A stretch of DNA of 64,000 nt from Flavobacterium saliperosum (GTDB lineage: Bacteria; Bacteroidota; Bacteroidia; Flavobacteriales; Flavobacteriaceae): positions 620,001 to 684,000 of the forward strand of contig NZ_FMTY01000001.1 in NCBI RefSeq assembly GCF_900100625.1. The letters are read 5' to 3'. The translations under genes were made by a program, and so were the position numbers. Numbering within the stretch: position 1 is the stretch's first letter; each line of letters starts with the position of its first letter. Of the stretch, positions 57,835 to 64,000 are shown piece after piece. The notes beneath the pieces were generated by a model. That model worked only from the letters and a program-made list of their open reading frames with translations, did not search any database and was not told the origin of the DNA.

Positions 57835-59121
57835 TTACAAAGTGAAAAAGGCAACCACTCCAGCCAACAGCATCACGCCATACCCGAGGTAGAGATAGTA
57901 TTGCAGATGTCGGCCGCCGGCCCAAATCCCAATCCCCATCTTCACTAACGTATTGCTTAAAGTCGCAACGAGAACCGCTTTGGAAGCCAGCGCCACATCC
58001 AAAGAATGACCGGTTAGTTTCGAGATGGATATTGTAATGGCATCGATATCCGAAAAACCCGCTATGGCACTGGAAACCAGCATTCCTTCGGCACCCAGAT
58101 TCGCATTGGCATAACTGACAATCAACAGAATAACCGTATACAACAACCCGAAAACCAAGGCACCCGGCAAATCCAACGGCTTGTCTTTTCGAACCACTTC
58201 CTCCATTCCTTTCACGTTTCGTTGTTTGAAATAAAAATAGAGCACGCAAAGGACAGCCGATCCGAAAACGATAAGCATGGCCAGGTACAATTCGGAAAAA
58301 AGCAATCGGTTAAAAACGAAAGTCCACACAAAAACACGGACAATCATCATGGCGGAAGCCGAAAAAATAGCGGTGGCACAATAAAGGGACAAATGGTCGT
58401 TTTCCTTGCTTTTTTTTGCAAAAATCCAAGTGGTGGCCGTACTGGAGACCAACCCTCCAATGAAGCCCGACAATAAGATTCCCCATTCGGCACCAAAAAA
58501 GCGCATGAGTACATACCCTACAAATCCCAAACCGGAGGTCAGGATAATGACCAATCCGATTTCATGTGGATTAATAACATCATACGGACCAAAAGTTGCA
58601 TTGGGCAAAAAAGGAAACACCAGCAATACAATTACCGTAAAGCGAATAAAATCATACAGTTCATCTCCGGTTATTTTTCCGATTACGGCTTTGAGTCGGA
58701 TTTTGGCGGAAAGCAGTACCACGACCACCACGGTAATCATCAGACTGATTTCTATAAAACCCAAAAACGTTAAACTTCCCAGCAAAAAAGCAATCAGTAC
58801 GGAAGATTCGGTTGTGGCACCGATATCACCGAGCGAGGCCGTTATCCAATAAGATATTCCGACGACAATTATAATCGCCAGCAGCACTCCGAAATAAATC
58901 CAGGGTGAAAAAAGAAACGAGGTCATGGCCCCCATGAAACCCAACAATACCACAAAAACAAATGTCCGCATCCCCGCCACACTTTGCACCTTCTCTTTCA
59001 AGGCGTTGTGCTCCCGCTCCAAACCGATCAGACAACCGATTCCGATGGCCACGAGCAACCGGACCACAAACTCCGATTGCGTCATTTTGAACGTAAGCAT
59101 GTCAACAAATTGAGAATCCAT
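57835..59121 (-). CDS. MgtC/SapB-DUF4010 membrane protein
   Basis: A 428-residue polytopic membrane protein. The N-terminal third is an MgtC/SapB domain (LLVAIGIGCLIGLEREHN, SVAGMRTFVFV, SYWITASLGDIGATTE), and the rest is a DUF4010 domain with SGFIGGLVSSTATTW and AIAGFSDIDAITISI. Family roles range from magnesium stress to lipid traits and are not settled for this fusion. Start taken at ATG 59121; later ATGs at 59100 and 59085 are possible. Confidence 0.85.
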   Translation of the reverse strand: MDSQFVDMLTFKMTQSEFVVRLLVAIGIGCLIGLEREHNALKEKVQSVAGMRTFVFVVLLGFMGAMTSFLFSPWIYFGVLLAIIIVVGISYWITASLGDIGATTESSVLIAFLLGSLTFLGFIEISLMITVVVVVLLSAKIRLKAVIGKITGDELYDFIRFTVIVLLVFPFLPNATFGPYDVINPHEIGLVIILTSGLGFVGYVLMRFFGAEWGILLSGFIGGLVSSTATTWIFAKKSKENDHLSLYCATAIFSASAMMIVRVFVWTFVFNRLLFSELYLAMLIVFGSAVLCVLYFYFKQRNVKGMEEVVRKDKPLDLPGALVFGLLYTVILLIVSYANANLGAEGMLVSSAIAGFSDIDAITISISKLTGHSLDVALASKAVLVATLSNTLVKMGIGIWAGGRHLQYYLYLGYGVMLLAGVVAFFTL

Positions 59122-59266
59122 CCTAAAAAAAGGTAACGGTTAGCGGTAGAACTAATTTCGGAATTTTATCTGAATCACAGTCACTTCCACCAAAAAATCA
59201 AAACCGGACAGCAATCTTTACAAACACCTGTAACTTTACCCACAGAACACTAACCAAACCCATATA

Positions 59267-59389
59267 TTAAGAAAATAACTTAAAAAATTAAGTTATTTTC
59301 TTAATGCATATACTTATTTTCTTAATAGATTGATAACGACTATTTATAATTTTAAGTTGTTCTCTTAAAAAACACAGTTATTTTCTCAA
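59267..59389. repeat. 21-bp-phased array of a 17-bp motif upstream of bioB
   Basis: A 17-bp motif, TTAAGTTATTTTCTTAA, occurs at 59288-59304 (exact), 59309-59325 (3 mismatches), 59352-59368 (2 mismatches) and 59373-59389 (4 mismatches), and in inverted form at 59267-59283 (exact). Start spacing is 21, 21, 43 and 21 bp, so five of six slots on a 21-bp grid are filled. The first two form a perfect inverted repeat with a 4-nt loop. A further small inverted repeat, TACCACGT/ACGTGGTA, follows at 59391-59412. This fills the 373-bp gap 59122-59494. Confidence 0.75.
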
Positions 59390-59466
59390 TTTACCACGTC
59401 GGTCAACGTGGTAAAAGACGTTTAAAAACACTCCTAACAAAATTTTTTACTTCGTATCTAATTACC

Positions 59467-59474
59467 TATTTTTG
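59467..59474 (+). promoter_or_regulatory. Candidate bioB promoter -7 box
   Basis: TATTTTTG matches TAnnTTTG, 20 nt before the bioB ATG and about 80 bp after the repeat array. Confidence 0.5.
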
Positions 59475-59494
59475 AACCATTCAAATAATGTAGT

Positions 59495-60583
59495 ATGAGT
59501 ACAACAACGAAACACAACTGGACGAAAGAAGAAATCATTGCGATATATAACAAGCCATTGATGGATTTGCTTTTCGAAGCGGCCTCCATTCACCGTGTAA
59601 ATCACGACCCTAATGTGGTTCAGGTTTCCACGTTACTGTCGATTAAAACAGGCGGTTGCCCGGAAGATTGCGGATACTGTCCGCAAGCAGCCCGTTACCA
59701 CACTAAAGTAGAAGGTAACGATTTAATGTCGGTTGCACAGGTAAAAGCACAGGCGTTACGCGCCAAATCCGGAGGTTCTTCCCGCGTATGTATGGGAGCA
59801 GCCTGGAGAAACGTAAAAGACGGACCCGAGTTCGATCAGGTTTTGGAAATGGTACGTACCATCAACAAACTAGACATGGAAGTATGCTGTACTTTGGGAA
59901 TGTTAACCGAAAACCAGGCGCACCGTTTGGCAGAAGCCGGATTGTATGCCTACAACCACAATTTAGACACCTCTGAAGATTATTATAAAGAAGTGATTTC
60001 CACCCGAGGATTTGAAGACCGTTTGCAAACCATTGAGAACGTTCGTAAAACGAATGTTACCGTTTGCAGTGGCGGAATCATCGGTATGGGAGAAAGCATT
60101 GAAGACCGTGCAGGCATGTTGGTGGCCTTATCGACATTGAACCCACAGCCGGAATCGGTGCCGATTAATGCGTTAGTTGCGGTAGAAGGCACGCCGATGG
60201 AAGACGAATTGCCGGTGGAAATCTGGGAAATGATCCGTATGGTAGCCACTACGCGTATCGTAATGCCGGAAACACAGGTGAGACTTTCTGCCGGAAGAAC
60301 ACAAATGTCAAGAGAAGGTCAGGCGATGTGTTTCTTTGCAGGAGCGAATTCAATTTTTGCAGGTGACAAATTATTAACAACACCAAATCCGGATGTAAAC
60401 GAAGACATGAAAATGTTTGAAATGTTGGGATTACAACCGCAAAAACCGTTCATCAAATTAATGCAACCGGAAACTGTGGAAGCGGAAGACTCCAAATTCC
60501 AGGCCTTGGGCGAAAAACCAAAATGGTCCCGACCGGAGCATAAAATTGAAAGAAACCTTGAGGCGCAGGCTAAAGGAAAATAA
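59495..60583 (+). CDS. bioB: Biotin synthase
   Basis: Radical SAM enzyme that inserts sulfur into dethiobiotin. The cluster-binding CX3CX2C motif is C55, C59 and C62 in GGCPEDCGYCPQ, and the second iron-sulfur site region (MEVCCTLGMLTENQ, TVCSGGIIGMGES) is present. 362 residues, normal length. It stands alone here, without the other bio genes, behind an unusual repeat array that may carry its regulation. Confidence 0.96.
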   Translation: MSTTTKHNWTKEEIIAIYNKPLMDLLFEAASIHRVNHDPNVVQVSTLLSIKTGGCPEDCGYCPQAARYHTKVEGNDLMSVAQVKAQALRAKSGGSSRVCMGAAWRNVKDGPEFDQVLEMVRTINKLDMEVCCTLGMLTENQAHRLAEAGLYAYNHNLDTSEDYYKEVISTRGFEDRLQTIENVRKTNVTVCSGGIIGMGESIEDRAGMLVALSTLNPQPESVPINALVAVEGTPMEDELPVEIWEMIRMVATTRIVMPETQVRLSAGRTQMSREGQAMCFFAGANSIFAGDKLLTTPNPDVNEDMKMFEMLGLQPQKPFIKLMQPETVEAEDSKFQALGEKPKWSRPEHKIERNLEAQAKGK

Positions 60584-61625: not shown

Positions 61626-64000
61626 TTAGTACATCACTTTTTTAGTAACCACCTGATTGTTTTCCAAAGTTACCTTAACGATTAAAGCGCTTTGTGTCGG
61701 TCTTACATGAGTGAGTTTCGCTGTATTACCGTTCACGTTTTTCTCTTCTGCAATTTGTCGCCCTAGAACATCATACACCACAACCGCTTTAATTTTCACT
61801 AAAGACGATGCCACATTGATACTTCCGTTGGTGTGAATCACTACCGAATTGGCCACCGCTTCAAAGGTATCATTGGCTAAAGTTGTATTGGTGAAACGCA
61901 ATTCGAAACGGTCGTTGAATTCACCCGCCGGAGTGGAGAACACATAATCGGTCGCCTTTAAATCGTGAACCACATTCAATTGACGGTCTACCAGATAAAC
62001 ATTCTCACGATTCAGGATTCCTTCCACTGCAGCAATTGAAATGGTATAGGTTTTTTCAAAATTCGACTGAAACCCTAACACTACCGTATCGTTGATATCA
62101 AACGCTCCTCTACCCTGAATTTTATATTTGTCTGTTCCGATTAAGGAATAGAAGGTAGCCGGCGTATTTGTTTTTGCATACGCTCCATCATAACCAAAAT
62201 CCACTCCGGAAGTCGCTTCGGGAAAGAAACCGGTTAACAGTTGACTGAACACCCCTTCCTCATTGGATAAAGTAAGCCAGATTCTGTCTCTGGTAACCGG
62301 AGCCACAGACCCATTACGATAAAAATTCGTATTCGCATAGGTAATGTTACGCATGCTGTTATTGAAAACCACATTTCCATTAACGGAGGCATCCACCTGA
62401 AAGCCCTGTCCCGAAGCAATCACACCTGTTGGCTGCGTCGTGTTTCCGGTTCCGGTTGCCGACGTAGCTGTTCCGCCCGAAAGGTTATAATAAGCAAAGT
62501 CATTCGAACTGTAGGCCGTTCCGTTAAAATTACCCACATGCGTCCAAAAATACAGTGTTCCAGAAATCACTCCTGCATTCGCATTGATAAAATCATCCGC
62601 GTCAATTGCTGAAGGATACGGATTTCCGATCAAATTGAAATCGTCGTTATTTTTAGCATTGTCCAAGCTCAAACTCACCGGTACCGAAATGATTCCGTTA
62701 TTAACCGGTCCGTTAAAGGCAACGCTTGCCTGTCTCGGGAAAACCCCGGATAAGTTAGCCATAGCAGCGTATCCTCTTCCCGGCGACATGGTTTCTGTTT
62801 GTGGTGTGAACACCCAAGCATCACCGTTATCATCGTGAGAATCGTTATTATCGTCACGGAAATTGGCTGCGTTTAATTTGTAAATGGCATTTTGATTCCA
62901 TCCCGACAACACATTCCCAATAGTGGTATTGGCAACCGGTGAAGACCAGAAGGTATAATCCAGACGATCAAAAGCCGCCGAAGTTTTGTTTACCGTCATT
63001 GTTCCGTTATTGGTAACTATGCCCGCATTATTAACCATCACCAACGATCCTTCATTAAGGACATTCAGCGTTCCCGTTGCATTAACCGTCAGATCACTGG
63101 TTACTTCCACATAATTGTTAGCACCCACTGTTAGCGTGTTTCCACCATTAACAATTAAGCTGCAGCAAGAAAAACTACCGTTAATTGAGGTGTTATAATT
63201 TCCGGCTATCGTTACAGCGGTATTCTTTGTCGGCACTCCGTTTGACCATGCGCTTCCATTCCAGGATGAAGAAATCACTCCACAAACCACAGGGATTTCG
63301 GTTATCACCTTTTGACATATTTCTATGGAAAAACTGTTTAGTGTCCCTGAATTCGCAGGCCCTCCTATGGCTTCAACATCCGCCACTCTGAACCTCCAGG
63401 TCCCGGCTGAACTTTTACCGTTCAAAGAAGCCAAACTTCCTATTGGTCTGTAACTATTACCAAGTCCGGCCCCTGCACAGGCAAAGGCTGCTCCGGCATC
63501 ATCAAAAGTGGTAATCAAACTGGCTTCCCCGTTACCGCAAGCGTAATCGTCACTTCGGTACAATTGTACAAAAGTCAGGTCAGGATGATTTACACCAACA
63601 TACAATTGGTTCGCCCTATGCGCAATGTTAGTCGATACATTCACATCGGAAATAACAACATTATCAGGCACATTGATTGTAAATGTCTGGTACGCCAACG
63701 GATTTTGTTCCACTATCGCAGCGTTTGGAGTAGCCGTGTAAGTCGTACAAACTGTAGCAACCGTATAACCGATAGCAAAATCCACCGTGTTAATCGCATA
63801 GTAATCATTACCGGTAGGTTCAATCAACAAACGGCAATATGGAGCTGCAATTCCCGGAACCGTAATGGTTTGGGAACCGTCATTAGGAACGTTTGCGATT
63901 AGGGTAATCGGGAACGTTTGTCCTCCGTCTGTGGAAAGCAAAATATTCACATTTGCCGAACCTGCCAAAGCGGTCGTATTGTTAACGGACCATGTAACAG
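61626..64000 (-). CDS. T9SS-secreted protein with P-domain (3' part; 5' end outside window)
   Basis: At least 791 residues; the frame stays open to the right edge. In order: a repeat-type beta segment (VNILLSTDGGQTFP), a proprotein-convertase P-domain (about 90-220 in the visible part: VPDNVVISDVNVSTNIAHR, LITTFDDAGAAFACAG, GTWRFRVADVEA), a parallel-beta-like stretch with NLTVN-style repeats, and a C-terminal sorting domain ending VYDVLGRQIAEE, LIVKVTLENNQVVTKKVMY. The last region fits type IX secretion signals. A peptidase domain, if any, would be upstream of the window; homologues are often reprolysin-like or subtilisin-like proteases. Confidence 0.88.
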   Translation of the reverse strand, partial: VTWSVNNTTALAGSANVNILLSTDGGQTFPITLIANVPNDGSQTITVPGIAAPYCRLLIEPTGNDYYAINTVDFAIGYTVATVCTTYTATPNAAIVEQNPLAYQTFTINVPDNVVISDVNVSTNIAHRANQLYVGVNHPDLTFVQLYRSDDYACGNGEASLITTFDDAGAAFACAGAGLGNSYRPIGSLASLNGKSSAGTWRFRVADVEAIGGPANSGTLNSFSIEICQKVITEIPVVCGVISSSWNGSAWSNGVPTKNTAVTIAGNYNTSINGSFSCCSLIVNGGNTLTVGANNYVEVTSDLTVNATGTLNVLNEGSLVMVNNAGIVTNNGTMTVNKTSAAFDRLDYTFWSSPVANTTIGNVLSGWNQNAIYKLNAANFRDDNNDSHDDNGDAWVFTPQTETMSPGRGYAAMANLSGVFPRQASVAFNGPVNNGIISVPVSLSLDNAKNNDDFNLIGNPYPSAIDADDFINANAGVISGTLYFWTHVGNFNGTAYSSNDFAYYNLSGGTATSATGTGNTTQPTGVIASGQGFQVDASVNGNVVFNNSMRNITYANTNFYRNGSVAPVTRDRIWLTLSNEEGVFSQLLTGFFPEATSGVDFGYDGAYAKTNTPATFYSLIGTDKYKIQGRGAFDINDTVVLGFQSNFEKTYTISIAAVEGILNRENVYLVDRQLNVVHDLKATDYVFSTPAGEFNDRFELRFTNTTLANDTFEAVANSVVIHTNGSINVASSLVKIKAVVVYDVLGRQIAEEKNVNGNTAKLTHVRPTQSALIVKVTLENNQVVTKKVMY

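Follow-up and report, generated by a model that had tools for sequence, protein, structure and literature searches.

Repeat arrays on a 21-bp grid before bioB and at other intergenic sites of Flavobacterium, and the protein gene family that such arrays usually adjoin across Bacteroidota

RESULTS

The array before bioB

The window, i.e. the whole 64,000-nt stretch of DNA analysed here, corresponds to positions 620001-684000 of contig C19 in the 2.89-Mb genome of Flavobacterium saliperosum (code G000). The gene bioB and its divergent neighbour enclose an intergenic region with the following features:

57835-59121, strand −: divergent neighbour, MgtC/DUF4010 protein
59267-59283, strand −: array unit 1, AT-type 17-mer (TTRA N9 YYAA)
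59288-59304, strand +: array unit 2, paired with unit 1 in a perfect 18-bp inverted repeat
59309-59325, strand +: array unit 3, with 3 mismatches to unit 2
59330-59347, strand +: array unit 4, degenerate, followed by the only 22-bp step within the AT part
59352-59368, strand +: array unit 5
59373-59389, strand +: array unit 6
59394-59411, no strand assigned: array unit 7, G+C palindrome CCACGT-N6-ACGTGG
59416-59432, strand +: possible eighth grid position, degenerate
59437-59480, strand +: putative core promoter of bioB, conserved with or without the array (G000, G009, G011)
59495-60583, strand +: bioB, with Radical_SAM and BATS domains

The array occupies 59267-59411 and consists of six AT-rich 17-bp units, one of them degenerate, followed by one G+C palindrome. 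A previous reading of the letters only had described five copies of the AT-rich motif, and these were found at 59267 (−), 59288, 59309, 59352 and 59373 (four with at most 3 mismatches to the consensus, the fifth set on the grid by script), as was the perfect inverted repeat of the first pair (arms 59266-59283 and 59288-59305). The ‘strict’ 21-bp grid proposed in that reading holds for most steps, with gaps of 4-5 bp between neighbouring AT-rich 17-mers, but one step is 22 bp, the distance from 59309 to 59352 being 43 bp (21 + 22), and a sixth, degenerate unit sits at 59330. Moreover, an array end at 59389 came too early, because the G+C palindrome (arms 59390-59399 and 59406-59415) occupies the next grid position; units of this type tie the bioB array to G+C-type arrays at other places. 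The promoter role of 59437-59480 is presumed from the Flavobacterium −7 consensus TAnnTTTG.

The repeat array is real. The best z value at lags 21, 22, 42 or 43 was 5.7 in 59201-59450, which was reached by none of 2000 mononucleotide and none of 2000 dinucleotide shuffles, and among 1275 tiles of the window the tile with the bioB array alone attained it. Chance periodicity would be favoured by the AT-rich base composition, but both kinds of shuffles refute it and homologous arrays lie at other sites, hence we give this explanation practically no weight.

bioB loci of related genomes

When 30 bioB upstream regions were compared, only that of G000 was clear (z 5.9, 0/200 shuffles). In G011 (locus L003) z was 3.6 and was matched by 3/200 shuffles, and we regard this array as probable, since 17-mers lie on a 21-bp grid and one of them is like units of two other G011 arrays; it is not called clear, because dinucleotide shuffles match its periodicity in 23/500. 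L006 (z 3.8; 5/200 and 9/500 dinucleotide shuffles) and L015 (z 3.7; 8/200 and 19/500) are similarly marginal and show no units by eye, and the L006 stretch belongs for the most part to the 3′ portion of a preceding coding region. Each of the remaining 26 regions gave a value matched by at least 16 of 200 shuffles. The genome with the closest BioB (G009, 98% identical) has the same core promoter without the array. From ∼59419 on, the possible eighth unit lies in a stretch that G000 has in common with G011 but not with G009.

These data bear on the proposal that the array is a new biotin-linked element, in which a new regulator would repress or activate bioB through it. The position of the array, ∼66-215 bp upstream of the presumed bioB start, and the probable array at the same gene in G011 agree with such an operator. 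However, conservation before bioB in relatives largely fails, with one clear and one further probable array among 30 loci, the promoter of G009 is unchanged without it, and sister arrays lie near other genes, in gaps of every orientation (see below). A biotin-specific operator was therefore rejected, and regulation of this kind seems to us very improbable; little or no dedicated regulation of bioB by the array is expected. The BirA operator pattern TTGTAAACC-spacer-GGTTTACAA was not seen on reading the array letters by eye.

Dispersed arrays in Flavobacterium

A DNA search of 299 genomes of the genus returned a second copy in G000 and two strong copies in G011, besides many weak AT-rich matches (47 genomes at E ≤ 1e-3). 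The palindrome CCACGTN6ACGTGG occurs at six places in G000, all within arrays (four in one array on C12, one on C15 and one before bioB), and in 6/40 genomes, G000 included; the reversed pattern, used as control, gave none in G000 and one place each in 3/40 genomes. The matches in G013 build arrays with a 43-bp (22 + 21) period, and the lone match in G007 resembles a plain terminator hairpin. Thus, the motif is no random scatter, as it comes back in compact arrays at other sites.

A profile made from sequence only (R1), for which 15 array segments of 86 bp were taken from five genomes, found arrays in 18/298 genomes of the genus (E ≤ 1e-3). The bioB array itself is absent from the R1 matches; its units are mostly of AT type and fit the G+C consensus poorly. 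By ORF calling, 22 of 23 arrays are intergenic and the 23rd overlaps a 98-aa ORF only, and the 23 gaps comprise 13 tandem, 5 divergent and 5 convergent ones. Sister arrays lie, among other places, after the gene of ribosomal protein S1 and in the gap that separates an FAD-oxidase gene from another ORF. In G000, G011 and G227 an array directly follows the S1 gene (six S1 domains), with differing unit sequences.

The bioB array is a dispersed copy of arrays that occur in this and in other Flavobacterium genomes, with the same grid, different sequences and intergenic position; we count it among them on account of its seventh unit, of the grid that they share and of the mixed array at the S1 gene. 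AT-type arrays such as this one look like degenerate versions, and the general case rests on the S1-gene locus and on the gene-side arrays described below.

A gene family beside the arrays

Among the ORFs around 25 array loci, one of ∼165 aa adjoins 5 arrays in five genomes, and those five loci have no other neighbour in common; we refer to it as the partner gene. A family of large proteins is common to more of the first array loci (9/25, against 5 for the partner gene); its members, at 61626-63968 (−) in the window and at eight other loci, are presumably common surface proteins. The remaining neighbours of the 25 loci are common to fewer of them, or by plain orthology.

The partner ORF was matched in 44/298 genomes of the genus (E ≤ 1e-3). 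With a cut-off set post hoc (E ≤ 1e-45), close homologues are present in 14/18 genomes with R1 arrays versus 10/280 others (Fisher P = 1.4e-14); five of these genomes had supplied the arrays behind R1, and two of those arrays are gene-side. We then considered 30 loci of the genus. At 23 of the 24 closer homologues the top downstream lag is 21, 22, 42 or 43, often in units unrelated to R1, and at the 24th another repeat ranks first and lag 21 fourth. The other six loci have no clear array downstream, and all five with assessable upstream DNA carry an array upstream (z 5.5-9.8, 0/200 shuffles). The subfamily marked by LNNLGVYHLT, which at first sight seems to have no arrays, carries them upstream. 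Loci L164 (z 9.1) and L168 (z 4.6) also gave downstream signals (0/200 each), with top lags of 28 and 58, and the lag test responds to other short repeats as well, for instance to 7-bp repeats downstream of L164.

Some genomes hold at least three copies of the partner gene (G201, G013, F. geliluteum, F. hydrocarbonoxydans and the Saprospiraceae MAG-32), and in such multi-copy genomes the array types often differ between the tested copies.

Gene and array across Bacteroidota

An alignment of 27 members (A3) gave 218 relatives in the GTDB collection, from which the best 80 loci were taken. These span Flavobacterium, Chryseobacterium, Epilithonimonas, Niabella, Saprospiraceae, Labilibaculum, Marinifilum and others, and include one MAG labelled Acidobacteria. 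In the 500 bp after the gene, z was at least 5 at 68/80 loci, and 71/80 were matched by 0/200 shuffles; in the 500 bp before it z ≥ 5 was seen at 6/80, and on either side at 73/80. Control segments 1.6 kb away reached this value in 0/76 and 1/74 cases (1/150). The shuffles of the phylum tests preserve base composition only, and the main test was repeated with dinucleotide shuffles, by which 67/80 loci had z ≥ 5 and 0/100. Seven of the 80 have no array by the lag test. The gene was found at 79/80 loci; a conserved neighbour other than the partner gene was also considered and rejected, the next best being common to no more than 10.

From a separate draw of 395 genomes of the phylum, which may overlap with the first set, we obtained 24 places in 18 genomes; four of the places were set aside as cut, broken or in the wrong frame (L300, L305, L307 and L308). 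An array lies on one side at 15 of the 20 assessable places, that of G000 included, and the other five are without one by the test. A distant branch of the family (IQIP...MSDKT...GSEAY), used as query A5, has matches in 31/395 genomes. With L307, L315, L319, L324, L328 and L333 set aside on the same grounds, L300 recounted, repeats of already counted loci excluded and the count limited to places that yielded a locus, 16/18 usable loci carry a downstream array (0/200 shuffles), 14 of them with z ≥ 5. For the homologue of this branch on the Thiodictyon plasmid pTs417 (Pseudomonadota; L309, 2911-3378), no array was found. In summary, arrays on the 21-bp grid usually adjoin genes of one uncharacterised protein family across Bacteroidota.

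Anatomy of the units, and DNA versus RNA

Counts of unit anatomy and hairpins cover 73 of the 80 loci (without L204, L205, L206, L211, L213, L240 and L248), those of skew and distance correlation 67 (also without L173, L189, L194, L195, L198 and L202). The pattern GTY-N3/4-RAC, which was picked after reading the same arrays, has 382 sites in the 73 gene-side regions against 70 after shuffling. The next site follows at 21 bp (127 cases), 22 bp (57), 43 bp (31) or 42 bp (17), and shuffled sequences give ∼0.1 each for 21 and 22 bp. Units with N3 go with 21-bp steps and units with N4 with 22-bp steps. The two arms of a dyad are often unlike (S-Y-S), and we therefore take the unit to consist of inverted half-sites, RAC-SYS, that alternate at every half period. 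The median array length is 378 bp (permissive mask, 67 loci).

Neither G/C nor A/T skew relative to the gene was clear (positive in 38/67 and 33/67 loci). Mismatches within dyads were T:G in 76 and C:A in 74 cases, those of arms G:T in 189 and A:C in 175. The lack of strand bias points to double-stranded DNA as the likely target. The reverse possibility, an RNA-level system in which the protein would bind a multi-hairpin transcript of the array, agrees with the many palindromic units, which would fold, and with the nearness of the gene; transcription of 52-nt repeats has also been raised by Subirana and Messeguer (PMC8161180). However, it is at odds with the absence of any G-U preference and of strand skew, with a terminator-like hairpin that precedes the array, within 130 bp after the stop codon, at 43/73 loci (shuffled 0/73), and with the Rfam search, which gave no array match at gathering score over seven loci and the window stretch, whence an RNA family was also rejected. 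Thus, the RNA-level system appears to us an improbable explanation. Below the Rfam threshold there were two matches in the window (best E 0.049), and a Flavo-1 RNA (RF01705) was observed near a gene-side array (L156, 1013-1090, −). A coding repeat was tried as well, as 21 bp equal seven codons and short ORFs run over the arrays, but the 22-bp steps shift the frame, which supports the non-coding status of the arrays.

The suggestion that phasing sets protein sites on one face of the DNA stands in part: a DNA-level, nucleoid-type element is likelier than a classic operator.

Co-variation and spread

The more two proteins differ, the more their arrays tend to differ in k-mers (Mantel r 0.35, 0/2000 permutations). 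For paralogues within a genome, the array of the nearest protein from another genome is closer than that of the paralogue in 15/20 non-independent comparisons; this co-variation could be simple co-inheritance. The motif RACNNCAAATTTGNNGTY occurs in 6/8 genomes searched, with 32 places in F. hydrocarbonoxydans and 26 in F. geliluteum, gene-side arrays included, and 0 for the control. The partner gene is missing from 19 of 20 dispersed regions fetched. In F. geliluteum, one ∼700-bp element recurs between different flanks in five regions and partly in a sixth, and its copies differ by whole units; thus arrays can spread by copying. This element (L265, L266, L267, L276, L277 and part of L273) has a conserved non-array left part followed by an array. 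No decayed copies of the partner gene were found at orphan arrays by tblastn, which gave two hits at E 0.002-0.005 besides five known genes.

The partner protein

The partner protein has ∼156-171 aa and is acidic, with a net charge of −1 to −8. It has no significant match in Pfam and NCBIfam, including none to ParB, Rep or HTH domains, though a very remote relation is possible, nor in PHROGs and PADLOC (main branch searched) or among PDB sequences. It fits no DNA-binding family, and the best library matches, among them MobP3 relaxase (E 0.0096) and LTXXQ (E 0.0098), are far below the cut-offs. An origin from phages or plasmids was rejected, as no homologue was found in viral_contigs, in phages or, for the main branch, in plasmids; the distant branch gave one plasmid record.

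The AlphaFold2 model from 63 sequences (mean pLDDT 87, pTM 0.68) has predicted helices at residues 13-31, 39-45, 50-65, 76-130 (55 residues) and 136-144. Foldseek found no significant fold relative (best E 3.6 in PDB and 0.57 in BFVD), and VIA-align reached a Z of 4.2 at most over 7 chains, where matches of long-helix folds mean little. The model thus depicts an all-helical protein without a known fold relative, and for this reason nothing in the fold says ‘DNA-binding’.

DISCUSSION

Many bacteria are known to carry tandem repeats of constant length and variable sequence for which no function is obvious; Subirana and Messeguer (PMC8161180) suggest a protein that polymerises on DNA and, in the accessible part of the paper, name none. 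A 69-nt family in Flavobacterium psychrophilum is listed in PMC6749651. The arrays described here fit the 20-23 nt constant-size, variable-sequence repeats, as a descriptive kind: their unit length is constant, their sequence varies and they are non-coding and intergenic. With the repeats of PMC8161180 they have in common a unit of ∼21 nt (dimer period 42-43 here, 40-41 there), a sequence that varies by array and species, mostly non-coding location and several arrays per genome. In contrast, our arrays come with a partner gene family, a GTY-N3/4-RAC half-site skeleton and hosts in Bacteroidota, and in the accessible portion of that paper's main text the terms ‘Bacteroidetes’, ‘Flavobacter’, ‘adjacent gene’ and ‘downstream’ are absent. 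We found no account of the partner family in the open-licence PMC literature, and this family appears to be the new part.

Helically phased tandem protein sites also make up plasmid iterons and partition centromeres, for example sopC with its 43-bp repeats. The arrays resemble these in phasing and in the 43-bp period; they differ from them in that several intergenic arrays occur per genome and that the partner has no ParB, Rep or HTH match. CRISPR loci likewise combine regular repeats with an adjacent protein gene, but units of the present arrays are not identical, gaps are 4-5 bp and the partner has no PADLOC match.

We propose that the bioB array is an orphan copy of a two-part system of Bacteroidota, made of a helical-protein gene and phased docking arrays, and give this reading a probability of roughly 0.55. 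One part would be the gene for the acidic, probably all-helical protein of ∼160 aa; the other would be the inverted half-sites, forming approximately GTY-N3/4-RAC dyads that recur beside the gene at two helical turns (21-22 bp), and additional arrays dispersed over intergenic sites. The arrays may serve as double-stranded DNA docking tracks for the partner protein, alone or within a complex. The partner, probably an oligomer, would assemble cooperatively on one DNA face, and such assembly would fix the spacing and let the sequence drift. The assembled protein may organise or mark nucleoid DNA, and the array before bioB would then have an architectural role, any influence on bioB or the divergent gene being secondary. 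That the protein assembles on the arrays of its own gene and on orphan ones, with types matched by clade, as an undescribed two-component DNA system, has in our estimate an even chance. Binding of the protein to the arrays is our inference, and what the data show is the pairing of gene and array, the grid, the dispersal and a lack of detectable strand polarity.

The main rival of this two-part reading is selfish or neutral spread, in which the arrays, like REP/RAYT elements, would be non-autonomous, spread through the partner protein or through host repair and have no host role, and the bioB copy would be a passenger. It would account for the patchy distribution of the gene in the genus, for the several copies in some genomes, for the ∼700-bp copies of F. 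geliluteum and for the many dispersed regions without partner gene. On the other hand, the partner is no recognisable transposase, the S1-gene locus keeps the place and grid of its array in three species while the sequence changes, and a period of 21-22 bp persists throughout the phylum. With REP/REPIN and RAYT the arrays do share dispersed intergenic palindromes and a gene flanked by repeats. They differ from them in the helically phased tandem units and in a partner without a recognisable Y1 (HuH) transposase domain; moreover, G011, which has arrays, gave no match to the Y1 transposase PF01797. Selfish spread is thus the less likely account in our judgement, rather unlikely as a whole, though with considerably more weight than an RNA-level system or a biotin operator.

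The gene family beside the arrays offers experimenters a first handle on the function of these repeats, and, if the two-part reading is true, it would be the first protein partner of the enigmatic constant-size bacterial tandem repeats. Should the protein assemble on them, bacteria would have a new means of specifying a nucleoprotein structure, by selection that acts on spacing and not on sequence.

Several minor observations concern the arrays and their surroundings. In G000 the sole Y1 transposase match (C6:115128-115391) lies ∼3.5 kb from the array of the partner gene, and there is no array at this transposase itself. In G013, palindromes (cacGGATTGCAAATCCgcgc) lie beside a Y1 transposase match (L338, 780-1320; G013:C4, near 46172); they are REP-like and different from the array units. 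The same locus has a separate AT-rich 21-bp array which is not among the R1 matches, hence arrays are more numerous than counted. Contigs end inside arrays in G000 (C5:8162-8275 and C15:32-145) and G009 (C7:411134-411210 and C8:17-92), and draft assemblies may thus be interrupted at such sites, with an undercount of arrays. Finally, the G+C-type arrays of L073, L076, L077, L078 and L086, from four genomes, have largely the same first two units, a common ‘head’ by which the order of units seems to be inherited.
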